A program made the position numbers and the translations under genes. Below the pieces are notes generated by a model. The model saw only the letters and a program-made list of their open reading frames with translations. It was not told the DNA's origin and did no database searches. Source: Candidatus Poribacteria bacterium (GTDB taxonomy: Bacteria > Poribacteria > WGA-4E > WGA-3G). From it: 17,930 nt of DNA. Numbering within the stretch: the first letter of the stretch is position 1; every line of letters starts with the position of its first letter. The stretch is from assembly GCA_009845505.1 (NCBI GenBank), contig VXZL01000064.1, positions 1-17,930 on the forward strand, read 5' to 3'. Positions 1 through 5,579 of this stretch are shown piece after piece.

Positions 1-879
1 CTTTAACTCAATTACCTTATCATAGTCCGATACTGCGGCATCATATTCACCCAAGAGGGCATTCGCTGAGGCTCGAAGGCAGTAAGCTTGAGAGGAATTA
101 AGACCCAACGCAATTGCTTTATCAAAATCAGCAATTGCGCTTTCGTAGTCTTTCAATTCAGATTTCAGAATTCCTCGATTGTGATAGGCACTGGCGAAAT
201 TGTGATTCAATTCTATTACTTGGTTAAAGTCGGTCATTGCCTCCGCGGATTGTCCAAGATTGTGCCGCATAATTCCCCGATTATAAAAGGCTTCCCAAGA
301 ATCGGGCTTCAACGTAATCGTCATGTTGTAAGCAGAAAGTGCTTTTTCTTTCCGGTTCCCTTGATAAAGGAGATAGCCCATTGAAAAAAAAGCATGCGCA
401 GCGAGTTCAATGTCACTCAGTTTAGGAATGTTTGAAGCAGGCTGCTTGCTTTTATGAGTTGTTTCTATAGGTGCTTCCTCTGCTAACTCTGGAAACAGTT
501 CTGTGAGTTCTGGAACGTATTTATCCTCATAATTATCAATGAGTTGACGAACAAATGCCATTAAGGGGTGCAAAGGATGCGTCTCACTTTCGCCTACCGC
601 ACCCACTAACTCTACAAGCAACGCATGCGCCCAGTCATAATCGTTTTCAATCAATGTGGGTACACCCTGATTTTCGTCACGACGCATAAACTCAATCAGT
701 TTATCTAACACACCCACCAGCCAATGATAGTCGTTTTCCGGATAGGACGGAAGTACCGGAGGTTGTGAGGTTCGCGTCTGTAACAGTTTAGCGTTGTCCA
801 ACAATTGGGACATACTCGGTATTTCCAAAGTTCCAGGTGGTAGGACCACTTTAGACCAAGTTTGTATACCTGTCAACAT
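1..879 (-). CDS. HigA-like N-terminal domain fused to TPR repeats; putative antitoxin partner of HigB (3' end beyond window)
   Basis: The frame is open for all 293 codons from ATG at 879 to the window edge, so the C-terminus is missing. Residues about 48-138 hold a helical segment resembling the N-terminus of HTH-type HigA antitoxins: an END-Y-x-W start near 78, then HPLHPLMAF, then LIDNYEDKYVPEL near 113-125. From about 158 on there are TPR units (YNRG and YHNRG starts, 34-residue spacing) up to the edge. No helix-turn-helix is visible. The start is firm: AAGGAG lies 6 bases before ATG, inside the last codons of higB, which ends 3 bases upstream, so translation is probably coupled. It is clearly paralogous to the protein at 1557-2621 (shared QLLDNAK and FPELAEEAPI). 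The antitoxin role is inferred from position and domain resemblance; a plain TPR scaffold protein is the alternative. Confidence 0.72.
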   Translation of the reverse strand, partial: MLTGIQTWSKVVLPPGTLEIPSMSQLLDNAKLLQTRTSQPPVLPSYPENDYHWLVGVLDKLIEFMRRDENQGVPTLIENDYDWAHALLVELVGAVGESETHPLHPLMAFVRQLIDNYEDKYVPELTELFPELAEEAPIETTHKSKQPASNIPKLSDIELAAHAFFSMGYLLYQGNRKEKALSAYNMTITLKPDSWEAFYNRGIMRHNLGQSAEAMTDFNQVIELNHNFASAYHNRGILKSELKDYESAIADFDKAIALGLNSSQAYCLRASANALLGEYDAAVSDYDKVIELK

Positions 880-882
880 CGT

Positions 883-1215
883 TTACTCCTTCCATCGCCC
901 TTTATTGTATTCTGCATGTGTTAGAACCTTATCAATTGTGACTCTCTGTTCATTTGTGGCATATTGTATAGAAGCGATAAGGCGGACATTATTACCACCA
1001 ATGTTAAACACTGTCCATATTTCATTTTGAGGTGGCTGGTTGAATTTGCGTTTACGGATTTTCACCTGATCTGCGTGCGGAAAAATCTTACGCAAATCGA
1101 CAAATGAGTTGAAGTTTCCTTGACGCATCAGGTGGTACCAGCGGTTAAGGGCAGATCTATCATTCGGGTGTTTTTGGGCAAATTTGTTTAGGACATTTCG
1201 TCCGGTGATGCGCAT
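883..1215 (-). CDS. higB: HigB-family type II toxin (RelE-like mRNA interferase)
   Basis: This 110-aa protein aligns by eye with E. coli HigB over its whole length: the basic N-terminal helix region (VLNKFAQKHP, 8-17), LRKIFPHADQVKI (41-53), the core FNIGGNNVRLIASI (70-83) and the C-terminal LTHAEYN (98-104) carrying the conserved His of the family. HigB toxins are ribosome-dependent mRNA endonucleases. The ATG at 1215 matches the family start, but its Shine-Dalgarno is poor: the nearest AAGGAG lies 23 bases upstream. That would keep toxin translation weak relative to the next gene, which has a well-spaced AAGGAG. A consensus promoter and near-palindrome lie upstream. Toxin-first gene order is the usual one for higBA. 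The gene looks intact. Confidence 0.88.
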   Translation of the reverse strand: MRITGRNVLNKFAQKHPNDRSALNRWYHLMRQGNFNSFVDLRKIFPHADQVKIRKRKFNQPPQNEIWTVFNIGGNNVRLIASIQYATNEQRVTIDKVLTHAEYNKGRWKE

Positions 1216-1266
1216 TAGGTATTTACAGAAGAGGCCTGCTCCTTGATTGTTTAGGTCAGGTTATTG

Positions 1267-1288
1267 CCTAAATAGTATACCATATAGG
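1267..1288. promoter_or_regulatory. near-palindromic putative operator over the higB -10 box
   Basis: A 22-bp imperfect inverted repeat, cctaaatagta at 1267-1277 against taccatatagg at 1278-1288, has 18 of 22 symmetric positions and is centred on gtatac. It covers the -10 hexamer and predicted start site. This is where toxin-antitoxin complexes usually bind to repress their own promoter, but the partner protein here shows no DNA-binding domain. Confidence 0.5.
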
Positions 1289-1302
1289 CCCCGAACTGTC
1301 AA
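1274..1302 (-). promoter_or_regulatory. sigma70-type promoter of the higB operon
   Basis: On the minus strand TTGACA (1302-1297) and TATACT (1279-1274) are separated by exactly 17 bases, a near-perfect consensus promoter. The predicted start is near 1267, leaving a leader of about 50 bases before higB. Confidence 0.85.
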
Positions 1303-1556: not shown

Positions 1557-2621
1557 TCATTCATCCTCCCTGCGAAAGACCGACATAAAAGATTCAGGAA
1601 GTTCGTCAAAGTCATTAGCTATCTTCACTTTGCCCTTCCACTGCCCACCACGGCGTGGTTGCTTGGCACTTTTCTGTTTTGAGTCTGACTGCTCAAGTCG
1701 TTGTAACCACTTTTCGATGAGGACTTTGAAATCAGCGTTTCCTTGCTGTTCTGATAGTACCAAAGCAGTCTGGAGATCCGATCTTGCTTTGTCTATATTT
1801 CCCAATTCAGCCTTTGCTACACCACGATAAGCGTACGCTTCGGCATAATCAGAATTTAGGCGAATCGCCTCGGTAAAGTCTATAATAGCGGCATCAAATT
1901 CTTCACATAGGACTTTCTGAACTGCTCGGTTGTAGTATGCTTCGGCAAAATTTGGATTGAGACGAATTGCAGTATCATAATCGGCAACGGCATCATCAGG
2001 ATGCCCCAGTCTATTTTTAACATTGCCTCGGTTGTTGTAAACTTCCGCATAATCTGGTTGCAACCGAATTGCTGTGTCGTAAGCAGAGAGTGCTTTTTCT
2101 GCCTTGCTTCCTTCCCAGAGGAGACAACCGATCGCGAAAAAGGCGTGCGCAGCAAGTTCGCTATCGCTCAATTCTGAGGCGTAAGGTGGTGGGTTATTGT
2201 TTTCGCTTGTTTTTGAAATAGGTGCTTCCTCTGCCAACTCTGGAAACCGTTCAGTCAGTTTTGGAACATAGGCATCTTCATAATTGGCAATGATCCGAAT
2301 AATAAAGGTCATCAGCGGGTCTAACGGGTGATTTTCATTCGCGCCAACGGAATAGATTAACTTTTCTAATACATCGTCCAGCCACTGATACTCGGCTTCA
2401 GTCAACTTGATGGCCCCGGAATGCCCGTGCCGTTGTCCGAAGTCGATTAATCCATCTAATACCTCGGCTAACCACTGGTAGGCAGTTTCGGGATACGGCG
2501 AAGGGACAGCAGGTTTGGATGTGCGCGTTTGTACCGGTTTAGCGTTATCCAACAATTGCGGCATACTCGGCACGATGTCTGTGAGCAAAAGATTATTTTT
2601 CCCAAATCTGAATGTTAACAT
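1557..2621 (-). CDS. TPR protein with HigA-like N-terminus and antitoxin-like C-terminal tail (orphan paralogue)
   Basis: This 354-aa protein has three parts. Residues about 45-138 resemble the HigA toxin-binding region (TEAEYQWLDDVLEKLI at 74-89, HPLDPLMTF at 98-106, IIANYEDAYVP at 110-120) and contain a duplicated YQWL-x3-VL-x2-LI segment (48-59 and 78-89). Residues about 155-310 form four TPRs. The tail, 326-350, reads GKVKIANDFDELPESF and resembles the toxin-neutralising ends of VapB/DUF2281-type antitoxins. No HTH is seen. It lies 22 bases after the 823-aa TPR gene, with AGAGG/AGGA before the ATG, so it is probably cotranscribed with it. It has no toxin of its own beside it; the nearest is HigB, past the MITE-like element and a separate promoter. 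The TPR call is certain; the antitoxin-like role is inferred. Confidence 0.75.
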   Translation of the reverse strand: MLTFRFGKNNLLLTDIVPSMPQLLDNAKPVQTRTSKPAVPSPYPETAYQWLAEVLDGLIDFGQRHGHSGAIKLTEAEYQWLDDVLEKLIYSVGANENHPLDPLMTFIIRIIANYEDAYVPKLTERFPELAEEAPISKTSENNNPPPYASELSDSELAAHAFFAIGCLLWEGSKAEKALSAYDTAIRLQPDYAEVYNNRGNVKNRLGHPDDAVADYDTAIRLNPNFAEAYYNRAVQKVLCEEFDAAIIDFTEAIRLNSDYAEAYAYRGVAKAELGNIDKARSDLQTALVLSEQQGNADFKVLIEKWLQRLEQSDSKQKSAKQPRRGGQWKGKVKIANDFDELPESFMSVFRREDE

Positions 2622-2643: not shown

Positions 2644-5115
2644 TTATCTTTCATCGGTTTGCGATGTTAAATTGTCAAATTGCTGAAGTTTTTTTTCTAT
2701 GTCGGTTTTGAGCGCAGTATTATTTTGCTGTTCTGCCAATTCCAACGCAGTTTGGTAATCCGCTCTCGCTTCGTGAATCCGAAGTCGGAAAGCTTTCATG
2801 TCTCCCCGAGATACGAAAGTCCTTGCAGAATCAGGTTCGATCCGGATAATTTCATCAAGATCAAGAAGTGCTTCATCAAACTGGTTGTTGAATAGTTTCG
2901 CTGTTGCCCGGTTTTTGTAAGCTGTAATGTAATTCGGGTCAAGATGCAGTGCCGTGTCATAATCCGCAATAGCACTTTCAAGTCCATGAACTTCCATTTT
3001 AACATTCCCTCGGTTAGTGTAGGCAGCCGCTGAATTCGGATAAAGGCGAATTAACTCATCATAATCCGCAATGGCAGACTCGCTTTGTCCAGACATAATT
3101 TTTGCGAATGCTCGTCTTTTGTAAGCATCCGCGTAATCCGGATTTAACTGAATTGCTTGGTCATAATCCTCAATGGCAGCTTCAAAATTTTCCAATACGA
3201 GCTTTGCTTCCGCCCGGTTTTGATAAAAGACAACAGCATCTGGATTTACACGAATTGCTTCATCAAAGTCAGCGATAGCTTCCTCATATCGTTCAAGTTG
3301 CTTCTTCATAATTCCGCGGTTGTTATAGGCCCCGGAATCATTCGGATCTAATTCAATCACCTTATCATAATCAGAAATGGCGGCTTCGTAGTTGCCAAGA
3401 GATGCCTTCGCGTTACCACGATTGCCATAGGCTCCGGCATCATTCGGACGTAATTCAATCACCTTATCATAGTCAGCAATAGCCTCCTCATATTTGCCAA
3501 GTGCCACATTTGCAGTGCCACGATTTTTTTGGGCAGCGGCACAATCTGGGTTTAGGCGGATAGCTTCATCAAAATCGATAAGGGATTCATCAATTTTGTT
3601 AAGTAAATACTTAGAAAGTCCCCGGTTATTGTAAGCGGAGGCATCATCTGGCTCTAAACGAATTATCTCAGTATAAGTAGCAATAGCTGCCTCATATTGC
3701 TTAAGGCTGAGCTGCATATCTCCTCGATTCCTATAGGCCCCAACATAATTTGGTCTTATACGAATGGCTTCATTAAAATCAGTAATAGCAGCTTCGTAGT
3801 TGCCCATATCTCCATTTGTATTTCCCCGATTGTTATAGGCAGTTGCATAATCGGGGTACAATTCAATAGACTTATCGTAATCAGCGATGGCGGCCTCATG
3901 ATTGCCAAAATCCGCATTTGTCCTTCCTCGGTTATTATAGGCTCCAGGATAATCTGGTTTTAATTCAATTGCCTTGTCAAAGTTAGCGATGGAGGCTTCG
4001 TAGTTGCCCATATCTCGATTTATGTTTCCCCGGTTATTATAGGCACCAGCATAATCTGGTTTCAACTCAATTGCCTTATTAAAATCCTCAAGTGCAGCCT
4101 CATAGTTGCCAGAATCTCCGTTTGTAATCCCGCGATTATTGTAGAATTGTGCATCGTTCGGTTCTAATCGGATTGCTTCGTCAAAATCTGCAATCGCATC
4201 TTGATAGTTCTTGAGGAGTAACTTTACAGTTCCGCGGGTATTGTAAGCTCGAGTAAAATCAGGTTTCAGTCGGATCGCCTCGTCACAGTCAGCAAGGGCA
4301 TCTTGATACCTTTCAAGATCCTGTTTTACCAGAGCACGAGTATTGTAAGTCTCGACATAATCAGGTTTCAGTCGGATCGCCTCGTCACAGTCAGCAAGCG
4401 CGTTATGATAGTTCTTAAGCATGAGCTTCGCCGCACCTCTACCGTTGTAAATTTCAGCGGAATCCGGTTTCAAATTAAGTGCCTTGTCTAAGGCAGCGAG
4501 TGCCTCCTTTCCTATACCTTCATTAATATAGAGAAAACCTACTGATGCCCAGGCTCGAAATGCCAAGGCTTTATCGTGTCCTTCTGCTATGTTAGCAATG
4601 GAACGCCATTTCTCAATTGCCTCTTCAATTTTTTCGCTCCGTTGCAATGCATAAGCGTCAGCAATAGCTTTTTCTACAAGAGTGGCTTTAGGATTCCGCT
4701 CAATTGCTTTAATGTACTCCTCGACCTCACTGGCATTCTCTGGTTTGCTTACTTCTTCACTCGTCAATTCCGGAGGGGGTTTGGATCGCGTCTTACTACC
4801 GAAAACAAAAACAAGGACCGCAATAAGGATACTGAGGGACATGTCCAATCTGATTATAGGATCGAAATGGATACCAAATATACGGATACCAGTAGATGGG
4901 CTTTCCCCTATTGTATCATTTGGAGTTTGTGTTTGCTGAGTAGCGGGATCACGCGGCGTTTGGGTTGATGCTTGTTCTTTTGATGTGTCATTTGGAGTTT
5001 GCGTTTGCTGGGTTGCAGATCCCGTTGAATCCTGCGCAGACAATATCATCAACTCTCCGGCACACATCACACCTAATACCAATACAACCGCCATAATCCC
5101 AATTTTCCTACACAT
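2644..5115 (-). CDS. membrane-anchored protein with about 18 tandem TPR repeats
   Basis: This 823-aa protein begins with a hydrophobic segment (5-26), then a Thr/Gln/Pro-rich loop in which ATQQTQTPNDT occurs twice (34-44, 58-68), then a second membrane segment (about 91-106) followed by basic residues (SKTRSK). The positive-inside rule puts the rest in the cytoplasm. From about 182 to 800 come roughly 18 contiguous TPRs, most starting YNNRG at 34-residue spacing, enough for more than two superhelical turns. TPRs bind proteins; the partner is unknown. The ATG overlaps the stop of the upstream restriction-gene remnant (TAATG) and has AAGGAGG 7 bases before it. The N-terminal 180 residues match the protein at 5966-7120, so they are paralogues. 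The linker before the repeats (YALQRS, AIEKW) looks like a degenerate TPR. Confidence 0.85.
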   Translation of the reverse strand: MCRKIGIMAVVLVLGVMCAGELMILSAQDSTGSATQQTQTPNDTSKEQASTQTPRDPATQQTQTPNDTIGESPSTGIRIFGIHFDPIIRLDMSLSILIAVLVFVFGSKTRSKPPPELTSEEVSKPENASEVEEYIKAIERNPKATLVEKAIADAYALQRSEKIEEAIEKWRSIANIAEGHDKALAFRAWASVGFLYINEGIGKEALAALDKALNLKPDSAEIYNGRGAAKLMLKNYHNALADCDEAIRLKPDYVETYNTRALVKQDLERYQDALADCDEAIRLKPDFTRAYNTRGTVKLLLKNYQDAIADFDEAIRLEPNDAQFYNNRGITNGDSGNYEAALEDFNKAIELKPDYAGAYNNRGNINRDMGNYEASIANFDKAIELKPDYPGAYNNRGRTNADFGNHEAAIADYDKSIELYPDYATAYNNRGNTNGDMGNYEAAITDFNEAIRIRPNYVGAYRNRGDMQLSLKQYEAAIATYTEIIRLEPDDASAYNNRGLSKYLLNKIDESLIDFDEAIRLNPDCAAAQKNRGTANVALGKYEEAIADYDKVIELRPNDAGAYGNRGNAKASLGNYEAAISDYDKVIELDPNDSGAYNNRGIMKKQLERYEEAIADFDEAIRVNPDAVVFYQNRAEAKLVLENFEAAIEDYDQAIQLNPDYADAYKRRAFAKIMSGQSESAIADYDELIRLYPNSAAAYTNRGNVKMEVHGLESAIADYDTALHLDPNYITAYKNRATAKLFNNQFDEALLDLDEIIRIEPDSARTFVSRGDMKAFRLRIHEARADYQTALELAEQQNNTALKTDIEKKLQQFDNLTSQTDER
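4259..4398 (-). repeat. identical 38-bp copies in adjacent TPR units, 102 bp apart
   Basis: Positions 4259-4296 and 4361-4398 are identical over 38 bases, exactly 34 codons apart, inside TPR units 2 and 3 of the 823-aa gene. A similar near-identical pair lies at about 3339-3378 and 3441-3480. Identity at synonymous sites points to recent repeat duplication or gene conversion within the gene. Confidence 0.8.
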
Positions 5116-5579
5116 TATGATTCCTCCTTGTTAATGTCTAATCCCGACAACTTTTCAACAATCCCCACCGTCTCCAAACTCACACTGATAACCTTCCGAA
5201 TCAAATCCACGATATACGTCTCATCATCTGCGCGGTTCGGGTCGTTCACGATGCCACTCCGTCTATCTGTCTTCACACGATACTGATCTACCACCCACTC
5301 TAACGCTGCGCGGTTCCCTAACCGATACTGAAACGCCTCGGCAGGGATACCCGCCAAGGTCAAGAAATCGTTGTATTTTATCTGTGTTTTGTCTTTAGAG
5401 AATTTCATCTGCTCCACACGCCAATCCAGTGGCATATCCGGTGTTTCGCTCAGGTCTAACTTATACGGAGGCTGGTCTTCATAGTGGACATGGATATGTG
5501 CTAAGCGTTTCCCCGCCTCGACAAACTTCCAGAAGTCTTTAGCAAACGGAATGTGGGGCAAGTCCCGCTTGAGGTTCAT
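5115..5579 (-). pseudogene. C-terminal remnant of a type ISP restriction-modification enzyme
   Basis: This 154-aa fragment matches the C-terminal specificity region of type ISP-like restriction-methylase polypeptides: NLKRDLPHIPF at the start, AGKRLAHIHVHYE, LAGIPAEAFQYRLGNRAALEWVVDQY near 75-100, and SGIVNDPNRADDETYIVDL near 107-125. Full enzymes are many times longer. The homologous frame continues upstream of the internal ATG (LHHPSYRERYQ) to a TAA at about 5635, and no Shine-Dalgarno precedes the ATG, so the natural start is lost. It is in a different frame from the N-terminal remnant at 5669-5851. Methylase and nuclease domains are absent. Its stop overlaps the ATG of the 823-aa TPR gene by one base, so it may persist as the translated head of that operon. 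Confidence 0.8.

Follow-up and report, generated by a model that had tools for sequence, protein, structure and literature searches.

The analyzed stretch of Candidatus Poribacteria DNA (the window, 17,930 bases, which is an entire contig) carries a HigB toxin gene directly followed by the gene for a HigA-like protein without a helix-turn-helix (HTH), which harbours tetratricopeptide repeats (TPRs). This partner is probably the cognate antitoxin of HigB and a derivative of HigA, in which the N-domain would neutralise the toxin, no repression through a HigA-type HTH would take place, and the TPRs would act as a scaffold. The toxin gene (883..1215, minus strand) encodes a protein of 110 aa that matches PF09907 with 81.6 bits (cut-off 27) and contains a loop extension of 17 residues (1012..1062, minus strand), as compared to the 4-5 residues found in HigBs with HTH-bearing or short partners. 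Along the minus strand, the higB stop TAA (885-883) is followed by ACG and by the ATG of the partner gene (879-877), with the toxin gene first and 3 bases between both, and a Shine-Dalgarno-like AAGGAG for the partner gene (886..891, minus strand) lies within the last higB codons. The reading of 891-877 thus bears out the 3-base spacing and the Shine-Dalgarno within the end of higB described in a previous sequence-only reading, whose proposal of a toxin with an HTH-less antitoxin is partly supported by the present analysis. The partner gene (1..879, minus strand) encodes 293 aa of this antitoxin candidate and stops at base 1 because the window is the whole contig, but the ORF of another assembly of the same species (L091) shows a full-length partner of 383 aa with six TPR_1 stretches and TPRs to near its C-terminus.

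Three regions can be recognized in the partner: a HigA-type N-domain at residues ~76-134 (478..654, minus strand), which scores 41.3 bits against a profile of 75-aa partners and is connected to HigA through an hhalign bridge; a weak second copy of this helical element, lying upstream of it at residues ~45-75 (655..747, minus strand; 11.4 bits for residues 48-78), which corresponds to helix 160-177 of an AlphaFold2 model; and the TPRs, detected in a Pfam-type scan at residues ~155-293 (1..417, minus strand) and running past the contig. Profile comparisons indicate homology between the N-domain and the N-terminal part of HigA. A profile built from 11 N-domains (HTH-less or TPR-type) aligned over 51 columns with that of eight HTH-bearing poribacterial HigAs (hhalign 97.7%, E 1.9e-12), and the profile of poribacterial HTH-HigAs in turn matched E. 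coli HigA (5ifg_B) at E 3.1e-18. Similarly, a profile of 11 HTH-less 75-aa partners gave 32-45 bits on HTH-bearing HigAs of 132-136 aa, but a second kind of HTH protein, with 115-137 aa, reached only 3-13 bits. The TPR-type N-domain profile searched directly against the PDB gave no HigA match, so the link between N-domain and HigA runs through the HTH-HigAs of the phylum itself as a bridge. The HigA-like N-terminus claimed from sequence alone, for which a profile search against HigA families had been suggested, is therefore confirmed through intermediates. The HTH of E. coli HigA is located at the C-terminus (PMC7984235), which means that the part in common with the TPR partner is the other half. 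The presence of TPRs in place of the HTH was also sustained, as the repeats start at residue ~155 and no match to the HigA-type HTH profile was obtained. None of the Pfam, NCBIfam and PADLOC models calls the window partner an antitoxin, nor is there a peptidase family among its Pfam matches or any PADLOC match.

HigA proteins usually have a double job, the neutralisation of the toxin and the repression of their own operon. The profile for HigA-type HTHs, which was built in this analysis and also defines the 39 HTH partners described below, matched none of the ORFs of the window or of the sequences fetched around 58 loci with long partners, and an HTH-HigA that could be the true partner, an outcome named beforehand as a refutation, was therefore not found in the vicinity. 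Lacking the HTH of HigBA, the partner is HigA-like rather than a HigA in the strict sense, and since this motif is missing from the fetched stretches, operon repression through a HigA-type HTH would be impossible for the TPR partner. Palindromes upstream of higB were found in 5/50 long-partner, 6/45 short-partner and 6/36 HTH loci, with no excess over shuffled sequences in any class, so that not even the HTH loci stood out in this operator test.

A survey of HigB-TPR neighbours, as the sequence-only reading had advised, revealed that the pair belongs to a recurrent class. HigB occurs in 60 of 84 Poribacteria genomes with 175 matches, and the 151 loci listed among them (the remaining 24 were left out) stand in 58 genomes; closely similar loci of related species are included in these counts, as are both assemblies of the window species. 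An ORF follows higB at 148 of these 151 loci, and the partners correspond to 39 HTH proteins, 50 short HTH-less proteins (70-155 aa), 58 long proteins (189-837 aa) and one relic (L129), whereas three loci show no partner ORF (L058, L095 and L137, the last one ending 16 bases past the stop). Long partners were detected in 40 genomes, short ones in 35 and HTH ones in 32. TPRs were counted with a small five-repeat profile, which scored 52 of the 58 long partners, so six proteins were assigned to this class by their length (L115, L134, L136, L138 and L144, of 251-371 aa, and the frame-disrupted L124, of 189 aa), whereas L114 (155 aa, contig-cut, HigB loop of 22 residues) was placed in the short class. 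The C-terminus is out of view in four long partners, owing to contig ends (L004, L103, L146) or a run of N (L099), and duplicate hits from the overlapping loci L099, L100 and L121 were removed. When the start was taken to be the first ATG, GTG or TTG in a scan beginning 45 bases upstream of the last base of the higB stop codon, a simple rule that sets both gaps and lengths, a gap of 3 or 6 bases was obtained in 51/58 long-partner loci, in line with the tight synteny proposed previously, and in 29/50 short-partner loci, whereas HTH partners overlap higB in 28/39 cases. The existence of 50 short HTH-less partners indicates that HTH loss and TPR gain are not linked to each other. HigB is broken by stops or frameshifts at 12 of the 151 loci (L049, L052, L059, L075, L077, L086, L104, L116, L118, L124, L140 and L150), which suggests that some modules are decaying, as a sign of turnover. 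The window genome itself contains five HigBs in all, with partners that include an HTH-HigA of 135 aa (L002), an HTH-less protein of 119 aa (L003), a 70-aa protein formed only by the N-domain (L001; 75 aa in the same species) and, at the window locus and at L005, the two proteins with an N-domain plus TPRs.

Some of the long partners differ in their C-terminal regions. Seven of them (L105, L106, L107, L115, L136, L138 and L144) have few TPR-like stretches and a common C-terminus, whose copy in L107 matches HSDR_N_2 with 17.5 bits, under the cut-off of 25, and could be a possible nuclease domain. In the case of L142 and L150, the terminal sequence recurs in L231 and L235 at the end of a separate ORF, which bears a VIDGDT-like motif and may be thermonuclease-like.

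The short form also follows HigB outside the phylum. Among 79 loci kept from the best 80 matches of one peptide pattern, 46 are poribacterial and 33 are not, as judged from their record titles, and all the TPR forms are poribacterial. HigB directly precedes the short form in 24 of the 33 non-poribacterial loci, with examples in Chloroflexi, Acidobacteria, Ignavibacteriae, Verrucomicrobia and Deltaproteobacteria records, and was not found before it in the other nine, a Latescibacteria locus included. The loci L185-L230 contain mostly HTH-less HigA-like partners of HigB with 70-90 aa from several phyla, and the examples scanned gave no Pfam or NCBIfam model over cut-off. A search of the N-domain in 5.8 billion proteins, which by its length limits excluded proteins of less than ~211 aa, returned 96 relatives, the window protein among them, and TPR domains of Pfam were present in 95.

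The toxin also shows a feature that accompanies the long partners. Among the 130 loci with an intact-looking HigB used for the tree and the loop counts, the HigB loop has 11-22 residues in 52/52 intact HigBs of the long class and 4-5 residues in 77/78 of the others, the exception being the contig-cut L114. Long-class HigBs form one tree group with an SH-aLRT of 95 (53 rows, L114 included). Independent gains of the loop and the partner type were considered and rejected, as the tree shows one origin; the association between loop and partner arose once, and represents shared inheritance from a single event, rather than repeated evidence.

The distances between HigBs correlate with those between the N-domains of their partners (r 0.73 for 114 pairs and 0.81 for 52 long pairs), and none of 1000 within-genome shuffles of the partners reached the observed value in either set. 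In the long class, which is informed by 10 genomes with at least two long pairs, the best shuffle gave 0.803 against an observed 0.814, whereas in the short class (r 0.79 over 44 pairs) the observed value was reached by 1 of 1000 shuffles. Operon linkage or linked inheritance alone could produce such a correlation. In seven pairs formed by the window locus and a relative, where some dS values exceed 1 and an eighth locus (L085) was unreadable, dN/dS ratios ranged over 0.09-0.21 (HigB), 0.12-0.19 (N-domain), 0.16-0.33 (TPRs) and 0.38-0.55 (N-terminal tail); HigB, the N-domain and the TPRs are under purifying selection.

These data bear on the possibility that the TPR protein is not an antitoxin at all, but a neighbour that acquired a HigA-like domain while HigB became inactive or controlled in trans by another antitoxin, or even that the toxic component is the TPR protein, with the roles exchanged. 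The N-domain has diverged from E. coli HigA, the window genome has an HTH-HigA elsewhere (L002), and paralogues such as the one encoded at 1557-2621 occur without HigB alongside (12 proteins in the 79 loci). Moreover, in the PD-lambda-2 system, according to PMC9519451, a fusion of HigA and a peptidase is toxic alone and a HigB-like protein rescues the cells, so the roles could be reversed in the HigB/TPR pair too. However, the low dN/dS of HigB, the occurrence of 58 linked pairs across 40 genomes, the pair-specific correlation of HigB and N-domain distances, and the existence of eight genomes with long-class partners only among the loci examined, all argue against a mere neighbour, which makes this explanation quite improbable.

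A different alternative accepts the partner as an antitoxin and regards the TPRs as a passive fusion, where the N-domain would neutralise HigB and the repeats would only help stability or solubility, their number rising and falling as is usual for TPRs. The short HTH-less partners present at 50 of the 151 loci suggest that the N-domain may suffice, and the length of the long partners varies widely, from 189 to 837 aa. Nevertheless, the purifying selection detected in the TPRs (0.16-0.33 in the seven pairs), the conservation of the first TPR, which equals that of the N-domain (3.57 bits each, as calculated from 36 of the 96 relatives, with 2.77 for the fourth TPR), and the restriction of the longer HigB loop to the long class render this alternative unlikely.

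The reading of the partner as a HigA-derived antitoxin with a TPR scaffold was also approached through structure prediction. AlphaFold2 models of an in-frame tethered HigB-antitoxin chain, which were based on shallow alignments of 35 and 41 rows, reached a pTM of 0.70 with 160 residues of the partner and of 0.80 with all the 293 residues in the window; these values favour a defined arrangement of HigB and its partner, and are what the tethered chain offers on the lack of a predicted interface that the sequence-only reading had listed as a refutation. The predicted arrangement is compact, with the TPRs beside the toxin complex. Searches of the tethered model with Foldseek and VIA-align gave HigB chains among the matches listed, and no HigA chain for the N-domain part, an absence that is not evidence either way. 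In the reading favoured here, HigB would be neutralised through the HigA-type N-domain, and the TPR scaffold is predicted to pack against the N-domain and the toxin and may offer a binding surface. The likeliest role of the repeats would be either a stable hold on the toxin complex or, hypothetically, a release coupled to another protein.

The window contains a second gene of this type (1557..2621, minus strand), a paralogue for which the ORF and profile scans indicate a HigA-type N-domain, TPRs and a VapB-type C-terminal tail (1602..1727, minus strand; NF050009 TA_VapB 28.3 bits, E 1.8e-6, under the cut-off of 60). No toxin gene adjoins it, and no ORF of at least 60 aa was found on the minus strand between 1216 and 1556, where a VapC gene would be expected. 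The tail peptide is nearly the same as the C-terminus of the VapBs at four other loci (L242, L243, L244 and L246). Tails like GGQWKGKVKIAEDFDELPESF end nine of the 58 long partners of HigB (L083, L089, L092, L094, L112, L113, L119, L147 and L148, with four C-termini out of view), and in five of them (L092, L112, L113, L147 and L148) an apparent PIN (VapC-like) gene comes next and overlaps that of the tail-bearing partner by 4 bases, the two that were scanned matching PF01850 with 54.2 and 61.5 bits; such a gene was not found after the partners of L083, L089, L094 and L119. The window HigB partner does not carry a VapB-type tail, as judged from the full-length protein of the same species (L091).

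When the VapC of these loci was searched against the 84 genomes, 16 matches in 15 genomes were obtained at E 1e-25. The six best ones are each preceded by a tail-bearing protein, namely those of the five higB-tpr-vapC loci and that of L240 (genome G067), whose N-terminus is out of reach. At L242, L243, L244 and L246, VapBs of 79-95 aa with a nearly identical C-terminal peptide stand before the VapC, the genes again overlapping by 4 bases, and the single VapB scanned among them matches both TA_VapB and Phd under cut-off. A VapB-like protein with a related tail precedes the matches L248, L249 and L251, the tail of L250 is more distant, and the filter for a preceding VapB-like protein returned nothing for L245 and L247. 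The tail-bearing proteins of the five loci resemble VapBC modules (Phd-type VapB and PIN VapC) in the peptide at their C-terminus and in an overlap of 4 bases with the PIN gene, but the Phd part is missing and the tail stands on a TPR protein that also bears a HigA N-domain. Most simply, a TPR antitoxin would have acquired a VapB tail devoid of the Phd part, presumably in this direction. Some solitary copies also exist among the 79 loci, where eight of the 12 long N-domain proteins without a HigB within the 800 bases before them have the tail.

The VapB-type tail, the adjoining VapC-like gene and the occurrence of the same tail in ordinary VapBs make some of these TPR proteins look like two-ended antitoxins. 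It is conceivable, although we lean somewhat against it, that the N-terminal HigA domain of such HTH-less TPR antitoxins holds HigB while VapC is bound by the VapB peptide at the other end; a single scaffold would then control two flanking RNase toxins, and a TPR ligand could free both at the same time. Solitary two-ended copies, such as the one at 1557-2621, would buffer toxins encoded elsewhere. A further combination was observed on contig C47 of the window genome, where a seventh N-domain protein of this genome (L257, 1029-1701, minus strand) has a HigA-type N-domain and a different C-terminus. No HigB was found on this contig, and the next gene, which overlaps, is PemK/MazF-like (PF02452 26.2 bits, cut-off 23.1), a third toxin family adjoining the same N-domain.

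Upstream of the paralogue, the window contains on its minus strand a remnant of the C-terminal part of a Type ISP restriction-modification protein (5115-5579; PF18135 125.7 bits) and, between this remnant and the two-ended paralogue, the gene for a TPR protein of 823 aa (2644-5115), which starts on the final base of the remnant ORF. Type_ISP_C has eight matches in the window genome, two of them beside N-domain loci (the window and C47).

A phage-defence module, in which the TPRs would sense infection and free HigB, can be envisaged by analogy with PD-lambda-2 and the toxin-antitoxin-chaperone systems. In this respect, the window HigB matches the PADLOC model PD-Lambda-2_A with 58.8 bits, the HTH-HigA of the genome matches PD-Lambda-2_B with 67.4 bits and a 75-aa partner does it weakly, with 14.8 bits; the defence by PD-lambda-2 is described as abortive (PMC9519451), and the Type ISP remnant at 5115-5579 has a longer counterpart beside L257. 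However, the window partner has no PADLOC match, the association with a defence island amounts to 2/8 ISP matches in one fragmented genome, and there is no known phage trigger, so this function seems doubtful. The reports on PD-lambda-2, HigBAC and CmdTAC indicate that domains or chaperones added to antitoxins can serve phage defence (PMC9519451, PMC11980606, PMC11618068), but the comparison with these systems is one of analogy, not of membership. The Poribacteria pair resembles PD-lambda-2 in having a HigB-family toxin and a HigA-like protein with an extra C-terminal domain, whereas PD-lambda-2B, as presented in PMC9519451, keeps the HTH, has a peptidase, is itself toxic and is accompanied by a third gene C, in contrast to a pair of two genes with TPRs and no HTH. 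In HigBAC and CmdTAC, the antitoxin is likewise tied to a protein-interaction function and its release can couple to a phage protein, but this function resides in a separate SecB-like chaperone instead of the fused TPRs of an HTH-less partner.

Among other known systems, HigBA of E. coli (ygjNM, with a PF09907 HigB; structures 5ifg and 6kml, and 5ycl for Shigella) has in common with the Poribacteria pair the HigB family, the toxin-first order and the HigA N-domain; the poribacterial partner differs in the absence of the HTH and the presence of TPRs after the N-domain, and its HigB in a longer loop. The candidate is thus HigBA-like by its HigB, gene order and N-domain, and lacks a defining feature, the HTH. 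An antitoxin without a DNA-binding domain is not new in itself, as paaA and epsilon are known: PMC5086665 describes such antitoxins, similar in this regard to the TPR partner, in the paaR-paaA-parE and omega-epsilon-zeta systems, where a third protein is the repressor. This repressor is encoded there by a separate gene, whereas none was identified here in a search for HigA-type HTHs. On the other hand, PanA/NetFlax antitoxins are also modular, in that their toxin-binding elements can be exchanged and an additional domain has been put forward as a sensor (PMC10440598), but the domain is Panacea and not a TPR, and neither 'TPR' nor 'tetratricopeptide' appears in the main text of that work. Both the reversed roles in PD-lambda-2 and the existence of antitoxins free of DNA binding slightly reduce the probability of the reading of the partner as the HigB antitoxin and that of the two-ended forms. 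No description of a TPR-bearing or HTH-less HigA, or of the two-ended form, was found in the literature searched, which comprised abstract openings among the matches listed and few subscription papers.

Altogether, a likely history would start with an HTH-HigA that gave rise to a short HTH-less antitoxin, followed in the Poribacteria by a single gain of both the long C-terminal extension and the longer HigB loop. The C-terminus would have diversified afterwards, and one branch would have gained the VapB tail, as the counterpart of a VapC encoded downstream. In any case, the repressor half of HigA is gone in these proteins and a protein-interaction scaffold stands instead, in a set spread over a phylum, whose likely intermediates still coexist in one genome. 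Two questions thereby become accessible to experiment, namely the way in which such an operon manages with no repressor of its own, and the possibility that an antitoxin acts as a hub responding to a further protein. The form of 70-90 aa present in several phyla allows one to check in a simple setting if the N-domain of HigA is sufficient by itself. Two-ended forms located between higB and vapC would illustrate the wiring of two toxin systems into one and, if this reading is true, would constitute a new architecture of type II antitoxin.
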